This document shows, in pieces, positions 3,338-6,826 of a stretch of DNA of 60,093 nt. Numbering within the stretch: position 1 is the first letter of the stretch; each line of letters starts with the position of its first letter. The DNA comes from Spirulina subsalsa FACHB-351 (GTDB lineage: Bacteria; Cyanobacteriota; Cyanobacteriia; Cyanobacteriales; Spirulinaceae): NCBI RefSeq assembly GCF_026130165.1, contig NZ_JAIHOM010000014.1:1-60093 (forward strand), given 5' to 3'. The notes below the pieces were generated by a model that saw nothing but the letters and a program-made list of their open reading frames with translations, had not been told where the DNA came from and ran no database searches. The position numbers were made by a program, and so were the translations under genes.

Positions 3338-4732
3338 CTAACTTAAAGACTCTAAATAGTCTCGCACCCGATTACGCCGTTTGGGTTGACGAAGTTTTTG
3401 TAATGCTTTGGCTTCAATTTGTCGCACTCGTTCCCGGGATAACTCCAGCGCTCGCCCGATTTCCGCTAAAGAATAAGGCTGTCCGTTGTTCAAACCGTAC
3501 CGCATTTGAATCACATCCCGTTCCCGACTGGTCAAATCCGTGAGCATATGTTGCAATTCTCTAACCAAGGCTTCCCGCATTAGGGTGTCTTCGGGAGAAG
3601 CTTCTTCGGTTTCTAGGAGATCCCCTAACTCCGTGTCTTTTTCCTTACCGACTTTAATTTCTAAAGATACGGAACGAGGAACCCGTAATAAGACTTCCCG
3701 CACCTGATCCGGGGTCATATCCAGTTCCTTGGCGATGTCCTCGGTTTTGGCAGTCCGTCCTTTTTCTTGGGAAATCTTGCGTTGGGCCTTCTTGATTTTG
3801 TTTAACTTCTCGGTGATATGGACTGGGAGGCGAATGGTGCGGCTTTGAGTGGCGATCGCCCGAGTAATCCCCTGACGAATCCACCAGTAAGCATAGGTAC
3901 TGAAACGATACCCTTTCGTGGGGTCAAATTTTTCTACCGCTCGTTCGAGTCCCAGCGTTCCCTCTTGGATTAAATCCAACAACTCCAGACCCCGATTTTG
4001 GTATTTCTTCGCCACGGAAACCACTAGGCGCAAATTCGCCTTAATCATATGTTCCTTAGCGCGAATCCCCGATTTTTGGATTTCCTCCAACTCCTCACCA
4101 TTCAAATCTGCCAAAATTGCCCAGTGCAGTTTCCCGCTCCAGAGTGCCTGTTTCAGGTCCACCACATCCAAATTCACCTCCTTGGCCCAACGTTCCCAAG
4201 AAGGGCGATGTCCTAATTGTGCCGCTAAACGATCATGCGCTTCAATCAAATTCATAAAGCGCGCCATCAATCGGTTCTGATAGGATGCTAGGAGATGAGC
4301 AACCACTAACTGTTCCTGTACCCACTGTTCCTGTACCCACTGTTCCTGTACCCCAAGAGAACCCACGCCCTCTAAAATGGCTTTAATCAGGATGACAGAA
4401 GTTGGTCTGCGAGCGGCTGCCGCCCCCTGAGCCCGCAAATTCAACAAAGCAACATAGCGTTGAATGATTTGCGCCTCAGAAACCTCCTCATCTCGTTTTA
4501 ATAACGGGACGCGGCCAATTTCGGTTAAGTATAAACGCACGAGGTCAGTAGTGTAGCGACCCGACCGTTTCGGAGCTTCTAGATTGGGTTCGGAGCCGTC
4601 CCAATCCTCCTCCATGAAGTCTGACGACAGGACTTGTGCCGCGTCATTGGACTCCTCAAAGGGAAAATCAAGGGTGTGAGACAATTCTAGATTGTCTTCC
4701 GGGGGGCTGATAGAGAAAGGAGGGGTTGGCAT
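3338..4732 (-). CDS. sigC: Group 2 RNA polymerase sigma factor, SigC-like
   Basis: The 464-residue protein has sigma-70 region 1.2 ([18 protein letters not shown] at 61-78), region 2 ([34 protein letters not shown]), region 3 ([14 protein letters not shown]) and region 4 ending in [17 protein letters not shown]. It recognises promoters as part of the RNA polymerase holoenzyme. The TTDLVRLYL start of region 1.2 with an acidic N-terminus of about 60 residues fits cyanobacterial SigC (a stationary-phase and nitrogen or CO2 stress factor in model species); the subgroup call is from memory. Residues 128-142 are a tandem VQEQW repeat in the non-conserved linker between regions 1.2 and 2. The start ATG at 4730-4732 is preceded by GAGAAA. 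Confidence 0.88.
4310..4354. repeat. Three tandem 15-bp repeats inside the SigC-like gene
   Basis: The unit CTGTTCCTGTACCCA occurs three times in a row (third copy slightly changed at its end). It stays in frame and encodes [15 protein letters not shown]. Because the unit is 15 bp, copy number can change by slippage without breaking the frame. Confidence 0.9.
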
Positions 4733-5198
4733 GGTAATTTCTCAATAACAAGCGGGGGCAACAACAGCATTAATCCGATTGGTCTGATTAAAGTTAATCC
4801 TAGTCAAGATTTTGCGTTGTGATGCAAACTGTGATCCATATCCCCGGGATAGAGTTGGTTTAAGCAAATCGGTTATAAATGATATAGGGAAATTGTGTGG
4901 ATACAGTGAGGACATGAGAACATCCTTGACCTTCAGTATAAAGAGAAAGTAAGTCCTCAGTAGTGACTTTCGTCAAAGGATATGTTAATCTACATCACTT
5001 CTTACCCCGATTCCTGAAAAGTAAGTGATTTTCTCTCGGGTCGAATCTATAATGATTTTGGCATCACCACGAGTTGAGTCGTGACATCCTCCCAACTCTG
5101 AATCAATTGTTTAATTCCAGTGGATCTGGAAAAAAGGACTGGTAAAGTGGGGGATGGCTAAAACTAGCCATCTTTTATCGATTCATCTGAAAAGACCT
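4733..5198. other. Divergent intergenic region between the sigma factor and carA
   Basis: This 466-bp stretch should hold the promoters of both divergent genes. No long ORF or RNA gene is visible. Near its carA end, GTGACATCCTCCCAAC (about 5079-5094) resembles the left-end motif TGACATCCTCCC of the IS type whose right end is at 184-219; it is short and may be chance. Confidence 0.5.
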
Positions 5199-6347
5199 AT
5201 GCCCATTTCCCACGCTCAACCTGCTCTACTGGTGCTGGCTGATGGTACCTCCTACCGTGGCTTTTCCTTCGGTGCGCCTGGCACAGCGATTGGTGAAGTT
5301 GTGTTTAACACCGGAATGACCGGGTATCAAGAGGTTTTGACCGACCCCAGCTATTGCGGCCAAATTATCACCTTTACTTATCCAGAGTTGGGCAACACGG
5401 GAGTGAATGCCGAGGATGAAGAGTCTGCCCATCCCCAAATCCGCGCCGTGATTGCCCGTAATATTTGCTATCGTCCCAGTAATTGGCGCTCTACCCAATC
5501 TTTACCGGATTATCTCAAACAACATCGTATTCCGGGGATTTATGGCATTGACACCCGTTCCCTCACTCGAAAAATTCGCACAGTGGGAGCAATGAATGGG
5601 GCATTGTCAACCGAAATTCTGGATCCTGATGAGTTACTCCGTCAAGTTCAAGGCGCTCCTTCTATGGCTGGACAAAATTTAGTCAAAGAGGTGACGACTA
5701 AAACGCCCTATGAATGGTCTGATGTGACTGAGGGAAACTGGGAGTTTAAGGAAGGGGAAGCCATCACGGGTGAACCTTTACGGGTGGTGGCGGTGGATTT
5801 TGGGGTGAAACGGAATATTCTCAAGCGTTTGGCGAGCTATGGCTGTCAGATTACGGTGGTTCCGGCTAATACGCCCCCAGAAGAGATTCTCAAGTACAAC
5901 CCGGATGGTATCTTTCTCTCCAATGGCCCTGGGGACCCCTCTGCGGTTCAGGAAGGTATTGTAACGGTGAAAAGCCTCTTGGAAAGTCAAAAACCGATGT
6001 TTGGCATCTGTATGGGGCATCAGATTTTAGGGCTGGCGCTGGGGGCGGAAACCTTTAAGTTGAAGTTCGGCCATCGGGGGTTAAATCAACCCTGTGGTTT
6101 AAGTCAGAAGGTGGAAATTACCAGCCAAAATCATGGTTTCGCGGTGACGGCGGAATCTTTAGGGGAGGATATTGAGATTACCCACTTTAATTTGAATGAT
6201 CAGACGGTGGCGGGTTTGGCTCATAAGAAATTGCCCTTTTTCTCGGTGCAGTATCACCCTGAAGCGAGTCCAGGTCCCCATGATGCAGACTATTTGTTTG
6301 AAAAGTTTGTTCGTCTGATGGCGGAAAATCGGGCGGCGCAGAATTGA
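5199..6347 (+). CDS. carA: Carbamoyl-phosphate synthase small (glutaminase) subunit
   Basis: CarA hydrolyses glutamine and channels ammonia to CarB for carbamoyl phosphate, the precursor of arginine and pyrimidines. The N-terminal CPSase domain ([23 protein letters not shown]) is followed by a class I glutamine amidotransferase domain with the nucleophile Cys at about 271 in [10 protein letters not shown] and the His-Glu pair in [11 protein letters not shown]. Length (382 residues) is normal. The start at 5199 ([16 protein letters not shown]) matches where this family usually begins; an in-frame ATG at 5154 would add 15 residues and lacks a well-spaced ribosome site. CarB is not in the window. 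Confidence 0.95.
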
Positions 6348-6454
6348 TTGAGGGCAGGGGGCGATCGCCGCTTTTCCAATTCTTTTACCCAAAAAGACCG
6401 AATAACCGATATACTAGAGCATTGATTCTATAAGGCTACAGTGAGGAGGAAGTT

Positions 6455-6826
6455 ATTCCTGAAGCACTTAACCTAACCGTAAGCTTAAGGGGCACGCGAG
6501 AAGTTAGGAAAGATTGCCAAATATTTCGGCTGACTGGGCTACTTGACGCTTTTTCTGAACCAACTTTTCGGAAAGTGTTAAGTGCCTGCATTGAGGATGG
6601 CCCCAAAAACACCATTCTAGTGCTATCACAAATTGATTTTGTCGATAGTTCCGGTCTAGGTGCGCTTGTGCAATTAGTTAAGCAAGCGCAAACCTTGGGT
6701 GGAAAGGTTCAAATTGTGACCAACGCCCGTGTGACTCAAACCGTGAAGCTCGTTCGCTTAGAAAAGTTTCTGTCTTTACAACCCTCGGTTGAGGTAGCAC
6801 TGGAAAATATTCAAAGTGCTTCCTAG
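6455..6826 (+). CDS. STAS-domain protein (anti-sigma factor antagonist type), apparent ATT start
   Basis: The C-terminal 85 residues form a STAS domain with the phosphorylatable-serine motif LSQIDFVDSSGLGALVQL. Such proteins act in partner-switching: phosphorylated by an anti-sigma kinase and released by a phosphatase. The conserved frame runs well upstream of the first GTG (6575), reading PEALNLTVSLRGTREVRKD and FRLTGLLDAFSEPTFRKV, which is normal STAS beta-strand and helix sequence. No ATG, GTG or TTG occurs between the in-frame TAA at 6431 and the GTG at 6575. The codon ATT at 6455 sits 5 nt after a strong GAGGAGG, so ATT is the likely initiator. A start at 6575 would delete the first strands of the fold. 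It is followed by a terminator. Confidence 0.82.
   Translation: MPEALNLTVSLRGTREVRKDCQIFRLTGLLDAFSEPTFRKVLSACIEDGPKNTILVLSQIDFVDSSGLGALVQLVKQAQTLGGKVQIVTNARVTQTVKLVRLEKFLSLQPSVEVALENIQSAS

Follow-up and report, generated by a model that had tools for sequence, protein, structure and literature searches.

The window analysed here is a stretch of 60,093 nucleotides from Spirulina subsalsa FACHB-351, and all positions given without further label are those of this stretch. At 6455..6826 on the plus strand it carries a gene for a STAS anti-sigma factor antagonist of 123 amino acids, which profiles, alignment and an AlphaFold2 model identify as very likely the orthologue of ssr1600 from Synechocystis. 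The frame is closed on its 5′ side by a TAA (6431..6433, plus strand), and a Shine-Dalgarno sequence GAGGAGG (6443..6449, plus strand), read from the sequence and recovered at homologous loci, ends 5 nt ahead of an ATT codon (6455..6457, plus strand). From the TAA up to a GTG at 6575..6577 (plus strand), the earliest canonical codon of the frame, not a single in-frame ATG, GTG or TTG is present. Directly upstream lies carA (5154..6347, plus strand, from the ORF list), which we take to encode the small subunit of carbamoyl-phosphate synthase. On the opposite strand, 1.7 kb from the ssr1600 orthologue, sigC (3338..4732, minus strand) was assigned by the NCBIfam equivalog NF005785 with 669.8 bits against a cut-off of 554; according to published work, SigC is what the Ssr1600/Slr1861 pair targets.

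The order sigC, carA, ssr1600 was found in seven of eleven relatives fetched from family f1, with ATT in each of them. In three of the other four, carA and ssr1600 fall outside the fetched stretch, and in the fourth (L351) the contig ends too near sigC for the order to be read. A different arrangement was seen in genome G014: sigC is not beside carA and ssr1600 there, and a distance of about 1.1 Mb separates the two genes. Among 79 distinct named loci, a carA match was obtained in 63, always upstream and on the same strand (63/63), and the two genes downstream of ssr1600, which we take to be MrnC-like and RlmB, were found in 76 and 73; NCBIfam has no family for the MrnC-like gene. A candidate −10 box TATACT is located at 6410..6415 (plus strand), 45 nt before the ATT. 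A scan of 203 loci returned TATACT as the best TA...T match in 95, and in 83 of those it precedes the start by 36-50 nt. This suggests, as a possibility resting on a consensus match only, that the ssr1600 orthologue has its own promoter.

The protein read from 6455 matches the STAS family PF01740 of Pfam with 62.2 bits (cut-off 22.6) and TIGR00377 with 62.9 bits (cut-off 53.45). AlphaFold2 gave a mean pLDDT of 93.8, with residues 1-10 at 94, and the closest solved structure to this predicted model is SpoIIAA bound to SpoIIAB (1tid_D, E 1.5e-8, TM 0.80). The residues D64 S65 S66 G67 (DSSG) are invariant in 28 sequences, and S65 is a candidate phosphoserine, its phosphorylation being inferred. 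In Synechocystis, Ssr1600 was described as an anti-SigC antagonist that is phosphorylated by Slr1861 (PMC12329169); PmgA is reported to phosphorylate it as well (Nakamura 2024). The published suppressor changes L24S and G43V and the phosphorylation site S59 (PMC12329169) fall on residues that correspond to L30, G49 and S65 of the window protein, with a constant offset of six. This register was checked with the window and five loci of genus g6, not with a named PCC 6803 sequence. We conclude that 6455-6826 very likely encodes the Ssr1600 orthologue, while binding to and phosphorylation by Slr1861 and PmgA are inferred for it. Compared with the Ssr1600-Slr1861-SigC switch of Synechocystis (PMC12329169), the protein is orthologous and shares the key residues; the difference is that the published numbering begins six residues later.

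The constant offset implies that published Ssr1600 was numbered from residue 7. A start at this residue, or at another internal codon, is a first alternative to ATT 6455. It is supported by the offset itself and by the codon of residue 7, which is TTG in three of the five g6 genomes. However, TTG occupies codon 7 in only 25 of 204 loci (CTA, CTG or TTA in 167), the Shine-Dalgarno sequence is located at a normal distance from the ATT and its counterparts and not from codon 7, and none of the first 60 alignment columns is canonical in more than 33% of the loci. An internal start of this kind is thus very unlikely, and a published numbering that begins six codons late is consistent with a mis-annotated start.

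A second alternative is translation from the GTG at 6575, with the similarity upstream of it being a relic or untranslated. In its favour, this GTG is the first standard start in frame. Against it, a protein begun there would lack two strands of the predicted structure (11-17 and 21-30) together with the beginning of helix 35-48, in which the GTG encodes V41. The codons upstream are under purifying selection (dN/dS about 0.05 for codons 2-40 in 19 pairs, with dS near saturation) and hold the columns L7, T8, S10-G13, G28, D31, A32 and S34, which are invariant in 28 diverse sequences. Moreover, the homologues do not start at the position corresponding to 6575: 33 of 204 loci have GTG as codon 41, and ATG or TTG does not occur there. 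We therefore regard this alternative as all but excluded.

These results bear on a preceding sequence-only reading of the locus, most of which held. It had claimed an absence of ATG, GTG and TTG between 6431 and 6575 and a GAGGAGG 5 nt before the ATT, both confirmed by reading the sequence, as well as STAS coding upstream of 6575, confirmed by PF01740 and TIGR00377 scoring above their cut-offs. Its claim that gene finders restricted to standard starts would truncate the protein at 6575 held for a mechanical ORF list, which cuts the frame short to 6575-6826. Initiation at the ATT, its central claim, is supported by start-codon conservation across homologues. The check it had proposed turned out favourable in the loci read: the N-terminal 40 residues are conserved, together with a start of the set AUU, AUA or AUC (in the following AUH) behind a Shine-Dalgarno sequence.

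At the aligned position, 202 of 204 distinct loci carry AUH: ATT in 149, ATA in 42 and ATC in 11. The exceptions are one TTG and one CTG; ATG and GTG do not occur. A first sample consisted of the best 80 of 327 loci from named genomes (ATT 69, ATA 10, TTG 1). Of 386 genomes drawn across the phylum, 185 gave a match at 1e-15; 110 of these loci were read, resulting in 190 loci in total, and two genus searches added another 34 (5 and 29), leading to 224 loci, 204 of them distinct. Left out of the tally are 12 of the 42 matches of one genus search and about 75 matches of the phylum draw. Three loci with small N-terminal insertions (L132, L156, L168) were assigned manually to the ATT that follows the Shine-Dalgarno sequence, L157 was placed via a BLAST alignment, and L253, which the script did not place, was excluded from the count, its codon being ATA by eye. 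The rows share ancestry and thus do not represent 204 independent events. AUH is present in 29 of 29 coded families, with f9 adding the one CTG, and in all eight named orders, for instance in Nostocales (36 ATT, 7 ATA) and Spirulinales (4 ATT, 1 TTG).

It is this conservation, and not the motif, that lifts the start call above chance. The pattern GAGGAGG-N4-6-ATT occurs 87 times in the genome of the window, compared to 75 copies of the reversed pattern, so that in one genome the motif alone does not exceed chance. A search of this genome for a second AUU gene behind GAGGAGG found none in 26 parsed hits (30 of the 87 were fetched), where a frame of at least 60 codons, free of canonical codons upstream and within its first 20 codons, was required and AUA and AUC starts were outside the scan. 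AUH was also found in a second species of the same genus from another assembly (L342), and together with the wider conservation this makes a sequencing error very unlikely. We conclude that ATT 6455 is almost certainly the start codon of the ssr1600 orthologue, its position being established by comparison, without an N-terminal peptide or ribosome data.

Some lineages deserve a separate comment. In genus g64, with genomes of 0.8-1.8 Mb, a size from which we infer Prochlorococcus-like organisms, all 29 script-placed loci have ATA with an ATC directly before it. At these loci (L228-L257) a stop codon, TAG or TAA in the same frame, stands immediately before the tandem ATC ATA in 25 of 29 cases. 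Either of the two tandem AUH codons may accordingly be the start in this genus. At one of the loci, L232, a TTG lies ahead of the tandem codons, two codons before the ATA. Genome G105 (family f5, genus g25, same order as the window) has no STAS orthologue and yielded only matches of 25-41% identity; it is the sole genome of this order listed without an orthologue in the phylum draw. On viral contigs, 31 stretches matched the search pattern and none encodes a relative.

The ribosome-binding site is conserved along with the codon. A stretch of six or more nucleotides identical to part of TAAGGAGGTGAT, taken as Shine-Dalgarno sequence, is present in 172 of 204 loci. Among all 204, the Shine-Dalgarno sequence is separated from AUH by 5-6 nt at 159 loci and by 8-9 nt at another 41. 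Outside family f25, which we take to be Cyanobiaceae, the commonest base at each of the positions −10 to −6 is found in 90-100% of 164 loci; pyrimidines at −2 and −1 are conserved as well, and the sequence farther upstream varies.

A third alternative takes the AUH codon as encoding an isoleucine within a longer product, translated from an upstream start via read-through or frameshift. In its favour, AUH equals the isoleucine codon set and a canonical in-frame codon is located upstream in 58 of 204 loci. In addition, the out-of-frame start in xTGAGGAGG creates short overlapping ORFs in some lineages, as judged by eye. Against it, 144 loci contain no canonical codon between the in-frame stop and AUH, and in 34 of these the stop is the TAG inside the TAGGAGG Shine-Dalgarno sequence itself. 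Among the remaining 60 loci (the 58 mentioned and two open to the end of the available sequence), only two upstream canonical codons are preceded by a Shine-Dalgarno-like sequence, a distant one in L010 and the close TTG in L232. The out-of-frame start is missing in other loci, which have TAGGAGG, AAGGAGG or CGAGGAGG. We consider an internal isoleucine all but excluded. At this point we want to note a limit of the argument: the two exceptions TTG and CTG are leucine codons, and it is the upstream stops alone that exclude an internal residue.

As a fourth alternative, the codon might be held by another constraint on the RNA, such as a structure or the binding of a protein or sRNA at the ribosome-binding site. 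Restraint at synonymous sites of codons 2 and 4 speaks for it: codon 2 is GCT in 73 of 75 alanine codons and codon 4 is CCA in 90% of 96 proline codons. This restraint is not uniform, since CCT makes up only 50 of 71 proline codons at codon 2 and the synonymous sites of codon 5 are free. Against the alternative, folding energy is unremarkable in 80 sampled loci (mean z +0.49), and the start codon continues to vary between T, A and C at its third position. This constraint is very unlikely to account for the codon, and an RNA hairpin at the ribosome-binding site, considered as a candidate, was rejected on the same folding score. In these 80 loci the mean unpaired probability of the Shine-Dalgarno sequence was 0.44, for which no control was run. 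The low synonymous variation at codons 2 and 4 (6458-6466 in the window, and homologues) may represent an extension of the initiation signal, and it is possible that part of the constraint concerns the initiation region as a whole.

Returning to ATT as the start, the distribution of codons on the tree requires at least 14 codon changes, of which only two are changes between AUH and NUG. G is found at 19% of the fourfold sites in ssr1600 and ATA is one transition away from ATG, yet ATG is absent, which argues for selection, although no probability can be given due to the related rows. In the counts of Belinky and colleagues, one of 61,358 ancestral AUG starts had become AUU, and 202 of 5,080 ancestral GUG starts had switched to AUG (PMC5622118). 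With AUG-to-AUU switches this rare, a codon that has remained AUH in all cyanobacterial families sampled indicates selection in favour of a weak start.

Our main reading is that ssr1600 starts at a weak AUH codon that is held by selection to limit the amount of antagonist, which we consider likely (about 0.78). The identity of the gene, the position of the start by comparison and the conservation are shown; the limitation of expression, the dose as its reason and a response to IF3 are inferred. In the proposed mechanism, translation from ATT 6455 would begin with fMet. The strong Shine-Dalgarno sequence would recruit the 30S subunit, and AUU, pairing with the initiator anticodon at only two positions, would initiate weakly, so that initiation would be limited at start-codon recognition. 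A canonical start would yield an excess of antagonist relative to its kinase/anti-sigma partners Slr1861 and PmgA, and the excess would free too much of the growth-limiting SigC. It is for this proposed reason that selection would have kept the codon within the AUH set throughout the evolution of Cyanobacteriia. The weak start would probably also let the antagonist level follow the stringency of initiation, that is IF3 relative to ribosomes. Ssr1600 was visible on Western blots of soluble protein (PMC12329169) and is hence not vanishingly rare.

Weak starts of this class are known from other genes. The gene infC starts with AUU in E. coli, AUA in S. aureus and ATC in Streptomyces (PMC5472188, PMC13009471), and the sequence-only reading, which had named infC as the known ATT case, agrees with PMC5472188 for E. 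coli. The likeness lies in AUH on a dose-sensitive gene and, in S. aureus infC, in an extended Shine-Dalgarno sequence, whereas the window gene encodes a STAS anti-sigma antagonist and the main infC is canonical at the Cyanobacteriia loci read. In Streptomyces, replacing the GTC start of sigR by ATG, GTG or TTG overproduces SigR, and IF3 represses sigR (PMC5472188). Here, too, a conserved non-canonical start (GTC 32/34, GTT 2/34) with a long Shine-Dalgarno sequence occurs in a sigma/anti-sigma pair, but it is GTC/GTT on the sigma factor within one genus, in contrast to AUH on the antagonist throughout a class. AUU and AUA starts with an extended Shine-Dalgarno sequence in S. aureus gave about 10% of AUG expression in poor medium; ccpN rose to 30% in rich medium and cvfC1 was unaffected (PMC13009471). 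These two Firmicutes genes, ccpN (AUA) and cvfC1 (AUU), share the conserved AUH and the extended Shine-Dalgarno sequence with ssr1600, and ccpN is likewise a regulator; they differ in encoding other proteins and in a conservation reported between S. aureus and B. subtilis or within staphylococci. In E. coli, AUU limits the expression of pcnB (cited in PMC1780047, PMC13009471), which is not a sigma regulator. The gene pcnB encodes poly(A) polymerase. By its conserved non-canonical start and a strong Shine-Dalgarno sequence at normal spacing, ssr1600 fits the AUH-start class as far as sequence shows, lower expression and IF3 repression being inferred.

The sequence-only reading had further proposed that an ATT start would tie sigma control to initiation fidelity. 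This is still an inference, made more plausible by two findings: sigC adjoins, and an AUH start is present on a cyanobacterial IF3 paralogue. The main infC of the genome of the window starts with GTG. A canonical codon near the conserved N-terminus was found in 28 of 30 main infC loci, the two lacking one (L204, L219) coming from family f31, outside the class; nine further loci are all canonical (L299 repeats L222), and the main copy of G116 (L305) is canonical too. An AUU start on the main infC was accordingly rejected for the Cyanobacteriia loci read. The genome of the window encodes a second, divergent IF3 at L306:783-1265 (G000:C105:7015-7497), which matches IF3_N, IF3_C and TIGR00168 and has no ATG, GTG or TTG in frame. 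Across the class, 50 matches to this paralogue in 47 of 175 genomes, that of the window among them, are clear of the main IF3 (E <1e-50). We read 31 paralogues of this kind (30 loci from the 175-genome search and L301) and found AUH in 30, with ATC in 25, ATA in 3, ATT in 2 and one unresolved (L320). Eight of the 25 ATC starts sit one codon before the aligned position, and in three of the 31 paralogues a canonical codon occurs in frame, 8-14 codons farther upstream. The AUH of the IF3 paralogue is often followed by GCT, as in ssr1600. Other second IF3 copies in G105 and G118 (L302, L303) are of a different kind and have canonical codons.

Two AUH-start genes thus coexist in many genomes, shown as co-occurrence, and one of them encodes a type of factor that is known to discriminate against AUH codons. 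A bolder reading, which we put forward as possible only, is that the AUH starts on the IF3 paralogue and on Ssr1600 form a small circuit of initiation fidelity. If true, start-codon stringency, in other words the dose of IF3 relative to 30S, would be a third input to the SigC growth switch, in addition to CO2 and light kinases. A feedback loop via IF3 is not shown, since the main infC is canonical and the f25 loci read keep AUH on ssr1600 in a family where no paralogue was seen (one IF3 match per genome, 18/18 in the IF3 search). A more modest alternative is that the AUH start sets only a constant low rate of synthesis, as proposed for pcnB, without modulation by IF3 or growth state. A constant low rate suffices to explain the conservation, the AUU start of S. 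aureus cvfC1 showed no effect of media (PMC13009471), and in the work of Feeney and colleagues an increase of sigR translation under oxidative stress could not be demonstrated. On the other hand, the AUA start of S. aureus ccpN varies with the medium (PMC13009471), and an AUH-start IF3 paralogue coexists in many genomes. On balance we lean slightly away from a purely constant rate and towards our main reading with a tunable start.

The class of phenomenon is already known from the conserved weak starts of infC, pcnB, ccpN and sigR; what appears to be new, within the literature searched, is the gene concerned, how deeply its start is conserved, and its pairing with an IF3 paralogue that itself starts at AUH. 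The main text of PMC12329169 contains no mention of 'start codon', 'AUU' or 'annotat'. No AUH start on a cyanobacterial sigma regulator is mentioned in the searched passages of PMC5622118, PMC1780047, PMC9845219, PMC11497404, PMC11863333 and PMC13339759. In print we did not find this AUH start, with supplements and an arXiv survey of non-AUG starts cited in PMC9845219 excluded from the search. The result corrects the N-terminus of a protein under current study, and gene finders restricted to standard starts will mis-annotate ssr1600. SigC activity, and growth in high CO2, are set by the dose of Ssr1600, and the near-universal AUH suggests, by inference, selection to hold the switch at a low, tunable level.

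A last observation comes from outside the class. In family f31 of the same phylum, infC at L204 and L219 (genomes G092 and G075) has no canonical codon before its conserved part and carries ATA or ATC there, a pattern as expected if AUH autoregulation exists in the f31 lineage, which is possible.
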